From Pseudomonadota bacterium (GTDB lineage Bacteria > Pseudomonadota > Alphaproteobacteria > Rhodospirillales > Magnetospirillaceae), in contig JAJZVW010000001.1 in the NCBI GenBank assembly GCA_021847015.1, positions 186,001 to 250,000 of the forward strand: 64,000 bases of DNA. Direction: 5' to 3'. The notes beneath the pieces are model-generated. The model had not been told where the DNA came from, did not search any database, and saw only the letters and a list, made by a program, of their open reading frames with translations. Positions 56,369 to 62,517 of the stretch are shown piece by piece (positions within the stretch are counted from its first letter, which is position 1; every line of letters begins with the position of its first letter). The translations under genes were made by a program, and so were the position numbers.

Positions 56369-57160
56369 TCAGCCGTCGGGAGCGCGGGTTCTGAGAAAAC
56401 GCCGGTCCGCGCCCTCCAGCACCAACGCCGTCAGCCGACCGCTGCGCCAGGCGCCGGTGTCCACGCCGATGCGGTTCGGGCGCATCTCCGGCGTCGGCAG
56501 GGCGGAATGGCCATGGACCACCACCTTGCCAAAGGCCTCCCGGCTGTGCAGGAACTCGTCGCGAATCCACATCATGTCCTGGGGATCTTGCCGCGCCAAC
56601 GGCACACCCGGACGAACGCCGGCATGAACGAACAGGTAATCCCCCTCCGTATGGGACAGCGGCAGGCGGCTCAGGAAGCGCACATGATCCGGCGGCATCG
56701 CCTCGGCGAGCAGCCGTTGCAGGGTACGCGTATCCGTTTCCAGCCCAGGCGGAATGGAGCCGATGTAAGAGCGCACGGTTTCCAGCCCGCCGTTCAGGAA
56801 CCATCCCGGCCCGATGGAGCAATCCGACAGGAACCGCAGCACGTAGTCTTCGTGATTTCCGCGCAGAGCCACCCATTGCGCAGTGGCCAGCGGCCCCGCG
56901 GACGGCGGGCCCGATGCCAGCCGCTCGACCACGCGCCGCGATTCCGGCCCTCGGTCCACATAGTCGCCAAGGAAGACCACCACCGCGCGCCGCGGCACCC
57001 ATGAGGCGAGATCCCCGGCCATTTCCTCCAGCAGGCGGTCGAGCAGATCGGCCCGCCCATGGATGTCCCCAACCGCGTAAACGCGCGAGCCGGATGGCAC
57101 ATGCGGCCGGCCGGCCGTGCCGTTGGCGCCGACGGTGGCCGAGGGGATTCGCGTTCGCAT
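56369..57160 (-). CDS. PP2A-like metallophosphatase
   Basis: The 263-residue protein shows the calcineurin-type metal motifs in order: GDIHGR near residue 31, GDYVDRG near 65, RGNHE near 98 and HGHS near 216. This set is shared by bacterial serine/threonine phosphatases and ApaH-like nucleotidases; the extra WFLNGGLETVRSY region is typical of the former group. The substrate is unknown. It diverges from the pseudo-EAL pair, whose promoter starts right at its first codon. A short agga lies nine bases upstream of ATG 57160. Confidence 0.85.
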   Translation of the reverse strand: MRTRIPSATVGANGTAGRPHVPSGSRVYAVGDIHGRADLLDRLLEEMAGDLASWVPRRAVVVFLGDYVDRGPESRRVVERLASGPPSAGPLATAQWVALRGNHEDYVLRFLSDCSIGPGWFLNGGLETVRSYIGSIPPGLETDTRTLQRLLAEAMPPDHVRFLSRLPLSHTEGDYLFVHAGVRPGVPLARQDPQDMMWIRDEFLHSREAFGKVVVHGHSALPTPEMRPNRIGVDTGAWRSGRLTALVLEGADRRFLRTRAPDG

Positions 57161-57295: not shown

Positions 57296-58627
57296 ATGAA
57301 CGCGACGGCGTTCGGCAACCGACCTCAGGAAGTGGTCACACCGGAGACCCTGCTTTACGATGCGGCCGAGCGGATCGGGCGCATCCGTGAAGGGCGAACC
57401 GCAGTCCACATCCACCTGTCGGAGCTCCTTCCCCGAAACCGCGACGACGCGAAGATTCGAGTGGCCACCCGGCTGTTCGAATCCATGGTCGACGTCTACC
57501 GCGGCCAGATGTTCCTTCTCACCAACTCCGACATCGTTCTGGTCTGCAAAGATGCCCGCCTGGCCGACCTCGACGCCACTGTCTACAAGCTGAGAGCGCT
57601 GTTCGCCAAAGATCCGTTGACCTATACCCAGTCGGCGGAAGGCGAAGACCGCTTCGTTACCTTTTACGACCTGGAATCGCAGTACGACGCGTTTTTTTCG
57701 CTTTGCGCGCAAATGCGCGACGACGGGAAAAAGCGCCAGGCCGATCAACGGGCCGCGCGCTATATCCGGGAACTGGACGCGGCTTCTCTCAGCGCCGTCG
57801 TGGAGCGGATCGCCGCCACCGACATTGCCAGTGTCGTCCGCCGTCAGCCCTGCGTCCGCATCGCCGGAAAAGGCCACGCCGAGGTCGAGTTCCAGGAATT
57901 CTACATGTCGATCGGCGACCTCCAGAAGACGCTCGCCCCCGACGTCAACCTGCTCTCCAACCGGTGGCTGTTCCAACACCTGTCCCAGGCGCTTGACCTG
58001 CGCGTGCTGTCGGCCCTGAAGGACGCGGGCTTCCGCAAATCGCCGGCGGCGTTCTCGGTCAACCTCAACATGGCGACGGTGGAGACGGACGTTTTCAAAC
58101 AGTTTTTCCGCTCGCTGGCCGGCCGGGCGGGTCTGCTGGTCGAATTCCAACTGATCGACATGTTCAACAACCTCGACACCTTTTTCCGCACCCGTGACGC
58201 GCTTCGGGCGCAGGGCTGCAAGACGGTGCTGGATGGAATGACGCCGATCACGTTGCAGTTCATGGACGTCGAACTCTACGACACGGATTTCGTGAAAGTG
58301 ATGTGGAGCCCGGACATGGCCGACGCGAGCCAGACCGCCGAGCTCCGGCACGCCTTGGGGCCGGTCGGTTTCGAGCGGATCGTCCTGACCCGTTGCGACA
58401 CCGAGGCCGCCGTCGCCTGGGGATTGGAACTCGGAATCCACCACTTCCAGGGCCATTTCCTCGACTCGATGGCGGCCGCCGTGACCATGCCCCAATGCGG
58501 CAAGTCGTCGGACTGCACGCTGGCTCAATGCACCCAGCGCCACGGGGTCATTTCGGGCCCGTTGCGTGCGGCATGCCCCAATCCGGACATGCTCGACGCC
58601 TTTCCGCCGCTGAAAGCGCTGCGTTGA
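57296..58627 (+). CDS. Degenerate EAL-fold protein with unusual N-terminal domain, twin 1
   Basis: The product has 443 residues. Residues 35-115 (AVHIHLSELLPRNR ... TNSDIVLVCKD ... VYKLRALFAKDPL) read like a ruined GGDEF half. From about 190 the order of elements follows EAL, but the catalytic sites are gone: EAL becomes EFY in FQEFYMSIGD, the mid Glu strand reads VEFQL, and DDFG reads LDGM. The ending ERIVLTRCDTEAAVAWGLELGIHHFQGHFLDS keeps the family close. No enzyme activity is expected; a binding or scaffold role is inferred. A Cys-rich tail (QCGKSSDCTLAQC) is unique to this twin. The strong ggggggaac ribosome site fixes ATG 57296. The paralog follows after 7 bp. Confidence 0.75.
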   Translation: MNATAFGNRPQEVVTPETLLYDAAERIGRIREGRTAVHIHLSELLPRNRDDAKIRVATRLFESMVDVYRGQMFLLTNSDIVLVCKDARLADLDATVYKLRALFAKDPLTYTQSAEGEDRFVTFYDLESQYDAFFSLCAQMRDDGKKRQADQRAARYIRELDAASLSAVVERIAATDIASVVRRQPCVRIAGKGHAEVEFQEFYMSIGDLQKTLAPDVNLLSNRWLFQHLSQALDLRVLSALKDAGFRKSPAAFSVNLNMATVETDVFKQFFRSLAGRAGLLVEFQLIDMFNNLDTFFRTRDALRAQGCKTVLDGMTPITLQFMDVELYDTDFVKVMWSPDMADASQTAELRHALGPVGFERIVLTRCDTEAAVAWGLELGIHHFQGHFLDSMAAAVTMPQCGKSSDCTLAQCTQRHGVISGPLRAACPNPDMLDAFPPLKALR

Positions 58628-58634
58628 TACGCCG

Positions 58635-59864
58635 ATGACGAAATCCCCTCTCGCCGGCCAGGAAAATTTGCTGCTGGATTATCTGCAGCGGCTGGAGCGC
58701 CATCGCAGCGACCGCCGCGCCGTGCACATCCACATGTCCCGGTTGCAGCCGACCAACCGGCGGGGCAATCACCTGCAAATGGCCGCCAGCGCCTTCGACC
58801 ATCTGGTGAAAATGCTGCACGCCCAGCTTTTCACCCTGGCCAACGCGGACCTTATGGTCGTCTACAAGACGCCGGTCCAGGACGACATCGAGGCGGCCAT
58901 CGTCAAGCTGCGTTTCCTTTTCGCCGACGATCCGCTGATGGCCGAGGATCGCGGCACGTCCTTTTGCACCTGGTATTCCCTGGAACGCGAATACCAGCAG
59001 CTTGTCGGACTGGCGCGGCGGATGCTGCAGGACGAGATCGAACGGCATCGCTCCGCACAGCAGAAGGCGACCTCGGCCTTTACCAGCGGCCCGCCGAAAG
59101 GGACGCCGTTCACGCCGGAACTGCTGGCCCAATCCGAGGCGGCGCTGCACCAGGCCGACCTCGCCAATCTGATCCGGCGCCAGGCGGTGTGCGCGCTGGT
59201 CGGCCAGTCTCCGCCGCATCCCGTCTTCCACGAGCTGTTCATTTCCATCAACGACCTCCGGCAGGTCCTGATGCCCTCGGTCAACGTCGCTTCCAGCCCC
59301 TGGCTGTTCCAGCAACTGACCGAGACGCTGGATCGCCGCGTGCTGTCGCTGCTGAACAAACGCGACGACCGCACGCTCGAAGGCGACATCAGCATCAATC
59401 TCAACGTTTCCACCCTGCTGTCGCAGGAATTCCTGACCTTCGACGACAACGTCAAACCGGGGATGCGCGGCACCATCGTGCTCGAACTGCAGAAGGTCGA
59501 TATTTTCGCCGACCTCGGCGCGTACCTCTTCGCCCGCGATTTCGTCCACGACCGCGGCTATCGCATCTGCATCGATGGCCTGACCCTGTCCATGCTGCCC
59601 TTCGTCGACCGGGAACGCCTGGGAGCCGACCTCATCAAGCTGGTCTGGGATCCCGCGATGGAACACCAGAAGGAAACCGCCGTCGAGGCATTGAGGCACT
59701 CCGGCCTGTCCCGGATCGTCCTGTGCCGCTGCGACACCCCGGCCGCCATCGACTTCGGCCAAGCCATGGGTCTTTCCCTGTTCCAGGGGCGGCACATCGA
59801 GAACACCCTGGCAAACGACATCCGGCGGCGGGGAATCGCCCGTGCCCGACCTCGGAGCTATTGA
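58635..59864 (+). CDS. Degenerate EAL-fold protein, twin 2 (tandem paralog)
   Basis: The 409 residues follow twin 1 from end to end. The N-terminal signature AVHIHMSRLQPTNR, the central DLMVVYKTPVQDDIEAAIVKL and LRFLFADDPL, the segment SINDLRQVLMPSVNVASSPWLFQ and the closing SRIVLCRCDTPAAIDFGQAMGLSLFQG are all shared. The EAL catalytic signatures are again lost (ELF for EAL, LELQK for the mid Glu strand, CIDGLTL for DDFG). The Cys-rich tail is absent. Two different but co-translated copies suggest a heterodimer. An ABC exporter gene pair follows after 71 bp on the same strand. Confidence 0.75.
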   Translation: MTKSPLAGQENLLLDYLQRLERHRSDRRAVHIHMSRLQPTNRRGNHLQMAASAFDHLVKMLHAQLFTLANADLMVVYKTPVQDDIEAAIVKLRFLFADDPLMAEDRGTSFCTWYSLEREYQQLVGLARRMLQDEIERHRSAQQKATSAFTSGPPKGTPFTPELLAQSEAALHQADLANLIRRQAVCALVGQSPPHPVFHELFISINDLRQVLMPSVNVASSPWLFQQLTETLDRRVLSLLNKRDDRTLEGDISINLNVSTLLSQEFLTFDDNVKPGMRGTIVLELQKVDIFADLGAYLFARDFVHDRGYRICIDGLTLSMLPFVDRERLGADLIKLVWDPAMEHQKETAVEALRHSGLSRIVLCRCDTPAAIDFGQAMGLSLFQGRHIENTLANDIRRRGIARARPRSY

Positions 59865-59935: not shown

Positions 59936-60709
59936 ATGACACTTTCGGCCATCGACGTGCGGCATCTCCGCAAGACATTCGGCAGCATCGTCGCCGTCGA
60001 TTCGATCAGCTTCACCGTCGCTGCGGGTTCGACCACCGCGCTCCTGGGCGGCAACGGCGCGGGCAAGACCACCACGCTGTCCATGCTGCTCGGGCTTCTC
60101 GTACCGACCGGCGGAAGCATCCGCATATTGGGCGAGGACATGGTGAGGCACCGCTACCGGGTGCTGCCGCGCCTCAATTTTTCCAGCCCCTATGTCGATC
60201 TTCCCCACCGGCTTACCGTTCGGGAAAACCTGACGATCTACGGCCACCTTTACGGTGTCCGCAACCTGAAGGCACGCATCGGCGAATTGGTGGCCGAACT
60301 GGAACTGACGCCGTTCCTCGACCGCGCCTCGGGCAAGTTGTCCGCCGGCCAGAAAACACGGGTGGCCCTGGCCAAGGCCCTCCTCAATCGCCCGGACCTG
60401 CTGTTGCTGGACGAGCCCACGGCATCGCTGGACCCCGATACTGCCGACTGGGTGCGCGCCTACCTGACGGCCTATCGCGACCGGACGGGCGCCACGATCC
60501 TGCTCGCCTCCCACAACATGACCGAGGTGGAGCGCATCTGCGATCATGTGCTGATGATGAAAAGCGGCACCATCGTCGACGAAGGCGCACCCGCCGCGCT
60601 GATCGGCCGCTATGGCCGCGCCACGCTCGAGGAGGTCTTCCTCGACATCGCGCGCGACCGCCCCCGCCCCGGCAACCCGGCCAGCTACGACGAAGAGGCG
60701 GCCCAATGA
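59936..60709 (+). CDS. ABC exporter ATP-binding subunit
   Basis: The 257-residue ATPase has Walker A GGNGAGKTT near residue 37, the signature LSAGQ and Walker B LLLLDEPTASLD. The family layout (ABC-2 type, DrrA/CcmA-like) fits export of a lipid, polysaccharide or drug. ATG 59936 is the only start consistent with the family N-terminus; the ribosome site is weak, so coupling to the upstream genes is possible. Its stop overlaps the permease start (ATGA). The substrate is unknown. Confidence 0.88.
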   Translation: MTLSAIDVRHLRKTFGSIVAVDSISFTVAAGSTTALLGGNGAGKTTTLSMLLGLLVPTGGSIRILGEDMVRHRYRVLPRLNFSSPYVDLPHRLTVRENLTIYGHLYGVRNLKARIGELVAELELTPFLDRASGKLSAGQKTRVALAKALLNRPDLLLLDEPTASLDPDTADWVRAYLTAYRDRTGATILLASHNMTEVERICDHVLMMKSGTIVDEGAPAALIGRYGRATLEEVFLDIARDRPRPGNPASYDEEAAQ

Positions 60710-61503
60710 TCTTTTCCTTCCGCCGGGTCGGCGCCATGGTGCTGCGGCATCTCTATATCCTGCGAGGGTCCTGGCCGCGCGTGCTGGAGATGGCCTATTG
60801 GCCGGCCGTCAACATGGTCGTCTGGGGGTTCACCAGCCAATTCCTCACCCGCCACAGCGACTGGGTGGCACAGGCCGCAGGCGTCCTGATCGGGGCTGTC
60901 CTGCTTTGGGACGTCATGTTCCGCGGCAATCTCGGGGTCTCGTTGTCCCTGCTCGAAGAGATGTGGTCGCGGAACCTCGGGCATTTGTCGGTCAGTCCGT
61001 TACGCCCTTACGAACTGGTCGCGGCCATGCTGACGATGAGCGTAATTCGCACTGTGATCGGCGTCGTACCGGCGGCCGTCCTCGCCATTCCCCTTTACCA
61101 CTACTCGATTTTCACGCTCGGCCTTCCCCTTTTCGCCTTCTGGGCCAATCTGATGGTCACCGGCTGGGTTGTCGGGCTGGGAGTGGCATCGCTGGTGCTG
61201 CGGTTCGGGCTGGGCGCCGAAAGCCTGGCCTGGGTTCTGGTTTTCGCGATCGCGCCGGTCGCGGGGATCTATTACCCCATCTCGGTGTTGCCGGCTTGGC
61301 TGCAACCCGTCGCCTGGGCATTGCCGCCGGCCCACGTGTTCGAAGGCATGCGCGCGATCATGTTCGGGCACGGGTTCCGCGGCGACCTGCTCCTCGGCGC
61401 CAGCGCCCTCAACCTCCTTTACCTGTCGGTGACCGTCGCGCTGTTCCTGAGGACCTACCACGTCGCCCGCATCCGCGGGCTTCTGCTGAACGTGGGAGAG
61501 TGA
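60706..61503 (+). CDS. ABC-2 type exporter permease
   Basis: The 265 residues hold about six membrane helices (for example LVAAMLTMSVIRTVIGVVPAAVLAI and LAWVLVFAIAPVAGIYYPISVLPAW). The segment PISVLPAWLQPVAWALPPAHVFEGMRAIMFG is the classical ABC-2 signature between the last helices. It overlaps the ATPase gene by 4 bp, so the two form one exporter. The frame has no accessory periplasmic protein next to it. The pseudo-EAL twins upstream are the only candidates for regulators. Confidence 0.88.
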   Translation: MIFSFRRVGAMVLRHLYILRGSWPRVLEMAYWPAVNMVVWGFTSQFLTRHSDWVAQAAGVLIGAVLLWDVMFRGNLGVSLSLLEEMWSRNLGHLSVSPLRPYELVAAMLTMSVIRTVIGVVPAAVLAIPLYHYSIFTLGLPLFAFWANLMVTGWVVGLGVASLVLRFGLGAESLAWVLVFAIAPVAGIYYPISVLPAWLQPVAWALPPAHVFEGMRAIMFGHGFRGDLLLGASALNLLYLSVTVALFLRTYHVARIRGLLLNVGE

Positions 61504-61513
61504 CGGCAGACCG

Positions 61514-62017
61514 TCACGCGCCCTTCCTGCGCGCCTCGGTCGCGATCTTCAACAAACAGGCGTCCCGGGACACGCCGCCGTCGGCGGTGTAGTCGAGGGC
61601 ATAGAATCCGCCCTTTTCCATGTCGGGAAACAGGTGAACCGACAGATCGCACCCGGCGGCGCGGTATAGCCAAACCTTTTCCGGCGGCTGGCCGCCCTCC
61701 TCGGAAGGCCGGCCGAGCAGATCGATAGTCTGGGCTTCCGACAATCCGACCAGCTTCGGCGGAAGCGCCTCCTTCCCGGGAACGGCCTTGGCCAGGGATT
61801 TCGGTTCGGCCGGACGTGGCTTCGGCACCGGCGCGGCGCGCAGGGCATCCTGCGCCTCCCCGCTCCGGGCGGAGCCCTGCGGGGCGGCGGACGCCGGCGC
61901 TGTCTTCGAGCCTTCCCAGGGAAAGGGCGGCAGGTTGGCCTCGATCGACGAACAGGCAGCCACGGACACGCCGAGGAGAACGGTATGGGCGATGGAACGG
62001 AGACTGGCGAGCGTCAT
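61514..62017 (-). CDS. Unknown small lipoprotein
   Basis: The 167 residues start with a lipoprotein signal ending VAAC (Cys near residue 20). A Pro/Ala-rich spacer follows, then a compact C-terminal domain (KLVGLSEAQTIDLLGRPSEEG ... EKVWLYRAAGCDLSVHLFPD ... ADGGVSRDACLLKI) that resembles the small SmpA/BamE-like or PsbP-like beta folds without a clear match. Two Cys (about 130 and 158) could form a disulfide. The gene converges on the ABC permease with a 10-bp gap. Function unknown. Confidence 0.65.
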   Translation of the reverse strand: MTLASLRSIAHTVLLGVSVAACSSIEANLPPFPWEGSKTAPASAAPQGSARSGEAQDALRAAPVPKPRPAEPKSLAKAVPGKEALPPKLVGLSEAQTIDLLGRPSEEGGQPPEKVWLYRAAGCDLSVHLFPDMEKGGFYALDYTADGGVSRDACLLKIATEARRKGA

Positions 62018-62239
62018 GCACAGGGACGGGGTTCGGGTCTGGACCAAAGGATTATGCCGTGGCTGCGGTTGGGGACGCAACGGCGGCGAACGGCTGTGAC
62101 AACTGCATGCAAAATTGTGGACGAAGAATGGCGGCTTTGTAGCAAAAAACGTCACTGCCAATAGGAGAATTGCCGACGGCCTGGGCAAGATTGTCCAATA
62201 GGTCTGTTTCCCAACACCCATCGTGGTAGGCACACCACT

Positions 62240-62461
62240 ATGTCCGCCAAGACTATCGCTTCCGCAATCGTTGTCTGTATCGCCCTGACTGGCTGCGAGA
62301 ACATGAGCCGCATGCAACAGCGCGCCCTGTCGGGGGGCGCGATCGGCGCCGCCAGCGGCCTTGCCATCACCGCGCTGACCGGCGGCGCCCCCCTGGCCGG
62401 CGCGCTGATCGGCGCCGCCGGCGGCGCCGCCATCGGCGCCGTCACGACCCCCAAGAAATAG
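62240..62461 (+). CDS. Glycine-zipper lipoprotein
   Basis: The 73 residues are a lipoprotein signal ending ALTGC (Cys near 19) plus a Gly/Ala-rich helix (GGAIGAASGLAITALTGGAP and on) with repeated GxxxG spacing, the glycine-zipper type of small outer-membrane lipoprotein. Such proteins often respond to envelope stress; no specific role can be given. It diverges from the previous lipoprotein gene over 222 bp. A small hairpin gtggt/accac covers its ribosome region. Confidence 0.7.
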   Translation: MSAKTIASAIVVCIALTGCENMSRMQQRALSGGAIGAASGLAITALTGGAPLAGALIGAAGGAAIGAVTTPKK

Positions 62462-62517
62462 CCTTTCGTGCATCGTCCCCGTGCTCCCCGGGGAGGAGGA
62501 CATCATGGGCGGGCTTC

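Follow-up and report, generated by a model that had tools for sequence, protein, structure and literature searches.

In a 64,000-nucleotide stretch of the genome of a bacterium of the family Magnetospirillaceae (GCA_021847015.1, contig JAJZVW010000001.1, positions 186,001 to 250,000; hereafter the window), two adjacent genes, here called A and B, encode paralogous proteins with a degenerate EAL domain preceded by what is most likely a degenerate GGDEF domain. We think it rather likely that the two products are co-translated pseudo-enzymes of the LapD, FimX and CsrD kind, working as a sensor or scaffold through protein contacts that a ligand or a partner would gate. Nearly all genomes of one bacterial order contain the family, and yet the window's two proteins fall below the Pfam cut-off for EAL domains. 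With this pair one can test which molecule, if not cyclic diguanylate (c-di-GMP) as a substrate, an EAL barrel binds once it has stopped cutting.

The A-B gene pair

The original prediction, made from the letters of the window, described two adjacent paralogs with an EAL relationship and a shared N-terminal motif, AVHIH.S.L.P.NR, and these three points were confirmed. A and B are complete open reading frames (ORFs) on the same strand with a 7-nt gap between them (Table 1), and their products are 35% identical over 398 columns (expect value, E, 6e-72), conserved far beyond chance, and carry the motif in common. They are real, intact and conserved paralogs; decay to pseudogenes was ruled out, as both frames are intact and conserved across many genera. 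The C-terminal half is EAL-like in both, though under the Pfam cut-off: the EAL profile (PF00563) gave 18.0 bits for A and 21.9 bits for B, with a gathering cut-off of 31.3. With E up to 1, the same profile matched 29 of 29 B-type rows and 18 of 23 A-type rows of the family. By contrast, GGDEF (PF00990) matched neither A nor B at E up to 10, nor any of these 29 B-type and 23 A-type members at E up to 1, and no significant Pfam or NCBIfam match was found in the N-terminal half. In the window's genome, a search with B returned only B and A, whereas an EAL family search yielded twelve matches, eleven of them above the cut-off and B below it, with A unlisted. Since A and B lie below the EAL cut-off, the family is likely to be omitted from Pfam-based counts of c-di-GMP proteins.

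Neither protein is predicted to span a membrane, the highest Kyte-Doolittle mean in a 19-residue window being 1.26, and neither shows a PAS domain. A ends in a conserved tail with four cysteines, possibly a zinc, metal or redox site. The tail pattern, with RH after the third cysteine, was present in 23 of the 101 family rows, all of A type, rows ending at the match end being unable to show it.

Half of the EAL active site is conserved

The metal and substrate residues of RocR, which serves as the numbering reference, were taken from the accessible parts of two papers (PMC7911125, PMC12943098). The EAL register in the C-terminal two thirds of A and B was fixed by profile alignment to RbdA and LapD, and the eleven canonical EAL positions compared were picked by us. 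K316, Q372 and E268 of RocR also count among its active-site residues. In B, N255 corresponds to N233 (the asparagine of NxS), E284 to E265, D314 to D295, K335 to K316 and Q384 to Q372, and Q183 aligned with the YQP glutamine (Q161) in MAFFT. Q183, N255, K335 and Q384 were found in 101 of the 101 rows, and E200, E284 and D314 in 99.

The lost positions are just as uniform. G315 of B replaces D296 and C364 replaces E352; both proteins have DG where RbdA has DD, and C or T at its AE..E glutamate. None of the 101 rows has an arginine at position 204 (R179), a D at 315 or an E at 364. The residue set of an active EAL phosphodiesterase is therefore incomplete, with D296 and E352 absent and N233, E265 and D295 kept. 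The ExLxR position reads Ex[FY]x[SA] (R in 0 of 101 rows), if E200 is taken as the EAL glutamate, and no loop-6 motif was seen by eye in the A and B family alignments. E200 is very probably the EAL glutamate (E175), assigned less surely than the other kept positions. A MAFFT alignment with seven canonical EAL domains speaks against it, placing the EAL glutamate opposite the variable N206; we nevertheless prefer E200, because of the hairpin register in the model and its conservation in 99 of 101 rows.

The original prediction held that the two proteins lose every catalytic signature. This is wrong, since seven canonical EAL positions are kept: Q161, N233, E265, D295, K316 and Q372 and, very probably, E175, the losses being R179, D296 and E352, with no loop-6 motif visible. 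It had also proposed a ligand or partner surface under selection, and here the data agree. Of the 220 columns of the EAL domain, 16 show a conservation of 97% or more in the 101 rows, and seven of the eleven canonical active-site positions fall among these 16 (p 7e-7; 6e-6 without E200). The enrichment was also obtained with the 73 rows under 70% identical (p 2e-7; 2e-6 without E200). The pattern of seven kept and three lost positions is that of a conserved half-site rather than of random decay. In EAL structures, the kept acids and asparagine presumably bind one metal and the lost acids belong to the second. Such a frozen half-site shows that the pocket need not disappear along with catalysis. 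Two residues past the lost E352 position, C366 is a cysteine in 77 of the 101 rows.

The N-terminal half is most likely a degenerate GGDEF domain

AlphaFold2 models were obtained with a mean predicted local distance difference test score of 86.8 for A and 86.0 for B (predicted template modelling, TM, scores 0.66 and 0.58), and both have the triose-phosphate isomerase barrel fold of EAL domains. For both models, the best Foldseek matches in the PDB were full-length GGDEF-EAL proteins, namely RbdA (E 8.8e-13 and 2.4e-12), LapD, MorA and PA0575, and the top rows spanned 416-453 alignment columns. VIA-align gave Z 14.4-17.6 to EAL-containing structures (50 rows per model, predicted models); full-length rows had 320-344 residues aligned, from residues 1-14 onward, and EAL-only rows 191-240. 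The top VIA-align row of B was LapD (6pwk_B; Z 17.5, root mean square deviation, rmsd, 12.2 over 320 residues), a rank that it shared with four further LapD rows and two RbdA rows. A superfamily profile search of the PDB placed RbdA first (6e-9) and LapD second (3.8e-4).

The 8411 ORFs of the collected loci were searched with a profile of the N-terminal half. At a loose limit it reported 27 of 36 GGDEF ORFs (75%) and 12.6% of 8161 others; at matched length, the values were 68% of 28 GGDEF ORFs and 19% of 1000 others (p 1e-11, Mann-Whitney). Some genes occur more than once in the GGDEF set. The better alignments were in register, hLskLkpqn falling on DLDxFKPIN and vLsnsDivlv on RYGGEEFLFC. A clear GGDEF signature, by a pattern of our own, was present in only 3 of the 44 best non-family rows of this search. 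At the register suggested by the profile, the GG(D/E)EF motif of active diguanylate cyclases is absent, B reading ANADL and A TNSDI.

The original prediction took the N-terminal half for an unnamed, new domain. Given the structural matches, it is most likely a strongly degenerate GGDEF domain with a signature that now reads xNxD[LI], and the dual-domain resemblance and the weak N-terminal profile signal agree with each other. Several observations weigh against this reading. Pfam matches nothing in the N-terminal half, the N-terminal profile gave no individual GGDEF ORF a significant score (best E 4), and full-length superpositions on GGDEF-EAL structures had an rmsd of 11-16 Å. For some dual-domain entries the VIA-align alignment was confined to the EAL half (3pjw and 6pwj with both models, 5xgb with B), and hhalign of the N-terminal half (shallow sets) with 13 GGDEF domains of the same genome remained under 1% probability. 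This hhalign set-up lacked power, since it also failed on the EAL half (0.9 and 2.3%). The TM-scores of the GGDEF-EAL matches were low as well (about 0.4), and low TM-scores and a high rmsd are to be expected if the two domains are oriented differently. A genuinely new domain, an alternative independent of the functional readings considered below, would account for the missing Pfam, NCBIfam and individual profile links. It also gains from the fact that the structural searches used whole-protein models and that, according to the notes of VIA-align, the N-terminal part was barely tested. Nevertheless, the matches to full-length GGDEF-EAL proteins have the domains in the right order, and GGDEF ORFs are enriched as a group, the better ones in register, so we consider a new domain most improbable.

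Functional interpretation

Loss of phosphodiesterase activity in A and B is a sensible prediction from their residues. An active phosphodiesterase with a one-metal or otherwise rebuilt site, acting on c-di-GMP or another substrate, would be in keeping with the four of six listed metal ligands that are kept, together with the K316 and Q372 equivalents. However, D296 and E352 are both absent from all 101 rows, and replacement of the E352-equivalent glutamate abolished the activity of another EAL protein, according to the accessible part of PMC12943098; activity of this kind is very unlikely. According to the part of a review that was accessible (PMC10333796), c-di-GMP may be bound by EAL domains that are inactive, and the motif that decides on binding is ExLxR. 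Classical c-di-GMP binding by A and B is doubtful because the ExLxR arginine is gone, and this counts against our interpretation in so far as c-di-GMP is the best-known ligand. A strict receptor of the LapD/FimX type, with an altered set of contacts, might still be envisaged. LapD is among the best solved relatives, its aligned stretch has the same changes (second D replaced; E352 position replaced, then R; FQG), and every one of the 101 rows has the counterparts of Q161 and Q372. The loss of R179 in every row and the lack of a visible loop-6 motif nevertheless make such a receptor decidedly unlikely. Alternatively, A and B might be pure protein scaffolds with no small ligand, similar to E. 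coli CsrD, the pocket residues merely holding the barrel together. The uniform loss of the ExLxR arginine would fit this idea, and E. coli CsrD (ExMxR), with a smaller change in the same motif, is listed as a non-binder of c-di-GMP (PMC10333796, accessible part). However, a scaffold should conserve its surface over its pocket, whereas canonical ligand and metal residues are over-represented among the columns with the highest conservation. We regard a pure scaffold as unlikely.

That the pocket is so strictly conserved speaks for a ligand still being bound there, in line with the ligand- or partner-gated pseudo-enzymes that we favour. Under this interpretation, A and B would be co-translated, cytosolic, degenerate GGDEF-EAL proteins, neither of which would make or cut c-di-GMP, because the GGDEF motif, D296, E352, the loop-6 motif and R179 are gone. 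With a ligand seated in the kept half of the EAL pocket, the dual-domain body would change its shape or a partner would dock. The two proteins probably form a heterodimer, with B as the core subunit and A as a specialised duplicate, and, as a guess from gene order, the complex might have an envelope role, perhaps towards the adjacent ATP-binding cassette (ABC) exporter. In another, quite speculative reading, which we judge unlikely to be correct, the EAL pocket would have been rebuilt as a single-metal or thiol sensor: E, N, E and D, the ligands of one metal, are frozen, as are Q, K and Q on the substrate side, the ligands of the second metal are gone, and C366 lies near the lost E352. If this were true, the pocket and the four-cysteine tail of A would together constitute a redox- or metal-gated pseudo-EAL switch in Alphaproteobacteria, with a ligand other than c-di-GMP.

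Distribution and phylogeny

A scan of genome contigs, which covered phyla beyond the window's own and reached close relatives, yielded 45 loci, mostly titled Magnetospirillum, Rhodospirillaceae or Rhodospirillales. One Magnetospirillum-like locus (L020, 71% identical) came from a record titled Stygiobacter, probably a mislabelled or mixed bin. Of the 61 genomes comprising the window's own and its relatives, 60 have a family match, and in the window's order 174 of 188 genomes with a completeness of at least 95% do so. The class gave 107 of 387. Among 397 genomes from the phylum, 36 genomes outside the class also matched, but we read these matches as ordinary EAL proteins because all were confined to profile positions 218-404.

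The claim that the two genes always occur as a pair holds in part. In the window's order the two mostly form a tandem, A and B being adjacent on the same strand in 54 of the 61 genomes (counted by reading the match table). All 50 loci holding both genes, ten of them fetched as pair loci and many congeneric, have A as the gene immediately upstream of B. Among the seven genomes without an adjacent pair (G005, G011, G016, G021, G047, G049 and G051), several are incomplete or have the genes at contig ends; G016 is 100% complete and has A and B on separate contigs, and G011 (0.9 Mb) has no match. Outside the order, however, 60 of the 102 matching genomes of the class had one match only (at most four candidates scored per genome). 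Single copies in most genomes, which the original prediction had named as evidence against itself, are thus found in this part of the class. Within the order, the listed copies of family f26 are unlinked, those on the same contig (G907, G910, G911 and G926) being 1.7-2.8 Mb apart, which weighs against A and B as a fixed unit and excludes an obligate operon. An obligate A-B pair was therefore rejected both outside the order, where single matches are commoner, and in f26.

In an unrooted tree of 89 rows, inferred by a quick method and with three very long end branches, the A rows and ten partners from further pair loci formed one group of 27, and the B rows (without L048 and L051) and ten partners one group of 31, both with a Shimodaira-Hasegawa-like approximate likelihood ratio test value of 100. 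The remaining rows branched outside these groups. The ten further pair loci, two from the window's family, four more from its order and four from outside it, each contributed one A and one B member, and the A/B duplication therefore predates the split of those families. Where other lineages have a single member, it mostly resembles B more than A.

Distant third paralogs also exist, including on Azospirillum plasmids, and no constant context was found for them. On the Azospirillum lipoferum plasmid AZO_p3 (L167:5581-8792), a distant member annotated as a hypothetical protein is immediately followed by two genes, one of the MotA/TolQ/ExbB type and one of the OmpA family. Two similar genes occur some 4 kb away from the unlinked copy in L135, and were present in no other locus searched. 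In four loci of one genus (L181, L182, L183 and L185), a distant third paralog adjoins a bacteriohemerythrin-like gene, identified by eye.

Genomic neighbourhood

Table 1. Features of the A-B region. Positions refer to the window.
Feature	Position	Strand	Evidence or recurrence
Gene A, 443 aa, read as a degenerate GGDEF-EAL protein with a C-terminal cysteine tail	57296..58627	+	ORF, EAL 18.0 bits, AlphaFold2, Foldseek/VIA-align
N-terminal domain of A (residues 15-128), taken to be a degenerate GGDEF with TNSDI for the motif	57338..57679	+	
A residues 160-400, degenerate EAL domain	57773..58495	+	
Four-cysteine tail of A (residues 401-427, CX5CX4CX14C), possibly a site for metal or redox chemistry	58496..58576	+	
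Gene B, 409 aa, read as a degenerate GGDEF-EAL protein	58635..59864	+	ORF, EAL 21.9 bits, AlphaFold2, Foldseek/VIA-align
N-terminal domain of B (residues 8-118), taken to be a degenerate GGDEF with ANADL for the motif	58656..58988	+	
B residues 158-398, degenerate EAL domain with kept half-site Q183, E200, N255, E284, D314, K335, Q384	59106..59828	+	
ABC exporter ATPase, 71 nt after B	59936..60709	+	co-directional within 0.9 kb in 24/47 pair loci
ABC-2 type permease, weak NCBIfam match	60706..61503	+	co-directional in 23/47 pair loci
Calcineurin-like metallophosphatase, divergent from A	56369..57160	-	34/46 pair loci with enough flank

No terminator-like site was found between B and the ATPase gene in the window. 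In other genomes almost no bases separate B from this gene, whereas about 500-650 do so in L011, L014 and L018. Past the permease, positions 61514-62506 (minus strand) hold a 330-aa ORF without an NCBIfam match, the true start of which may lie inside it. Much of the recurring neighbourhood may reflect old shared gene order, and we therefore take the A-B-ABC order alone as a hint of a functional link, which might point to the envelope; the absence of the ABC neighbour from 23 of the 47 pair loci counts against such a link. The next genes of the window served as a control and were rarely retained, EttA in 1 of 38 loci and LipB in 0 of 38, and a possible link to them was dropped.

At single-copy loci, the recurring neighbours were an HldE-like sugar kinase-cytidylyltransferase, a GmhA-like SIS-domain gene, a response regulator, a histidine kinase and cobalamin genes, names beyond those of Pfam having been assigned by us, and an ABC exporter of the same kind was near single copies in 5 of 23 loci. 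In L098, L104-L110, L112, L114 and others, single copies lie near a RegA/RegB-like pair, recognised by eye, and ADP-heptose-type genes.

Comparison with known systems

No description of the A-B gene pair was found in open-licence papers. An earlier inventory of c-di-GMP genes, which covered five orders of Alphaproteobacteria, chose proteins by Pfam EAL, GGDEF and HD matches, according to its accessible part (PMC9756655), and would therefore omit sub-threshold proteins such as A and B. The accessible part of an Azospirillum survey reports hybrid proteins with a highly degenerate GGDEF and a conserved EAL domain and does not mention the A/B type (PMC5845226).

RbdA (PA0861, PAS-GGDEF-EAL) is the best Foldseek match of both models and the best profile match, but it keeps the DD and the AE..E glutamate, both absent from A and B, which also lack its PAS domain. 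LapD resembles A and B in its dual-domain layout. It has membrane and periplasmic parts, whereas A and B have no membrane stretch and have lost the ExLxR arginine. A LapD/LapG system was rejected for want of a membrane anchor and of a LapG-type protease, no Peptidase_C93 being found in the window's genome with a search that was positive in Caulobacter, used as a control. CsrD and FimX are degenerate GGDEF-EAL effectors like A and B, and EAL structures of FimX were among the top VIA-align matches. A and B are, however, a bare two-domain tandem, whereas a PAS domain is present in FimX and GAPES4-HAMP parts in CsrD (PMC10333796, accessible part). The same part of that review describes EAL-only proteins of the YdiV type as catalytically inactive with regulatory roles, as we suppose for A and B, which differ from them in carrying an extra N-terminal domain and keeping half of the active site. 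The original prediction saw in the pair the window's best candidate for an undescribed system; this was overstated, because degenerate GGDEF-EAL effectors are a known kind. As far as our searches reach, what is new in comparison with these effectors is the tandem arrangement of two such degenerate proteins, in both of which half of the EAL active site is frozen.

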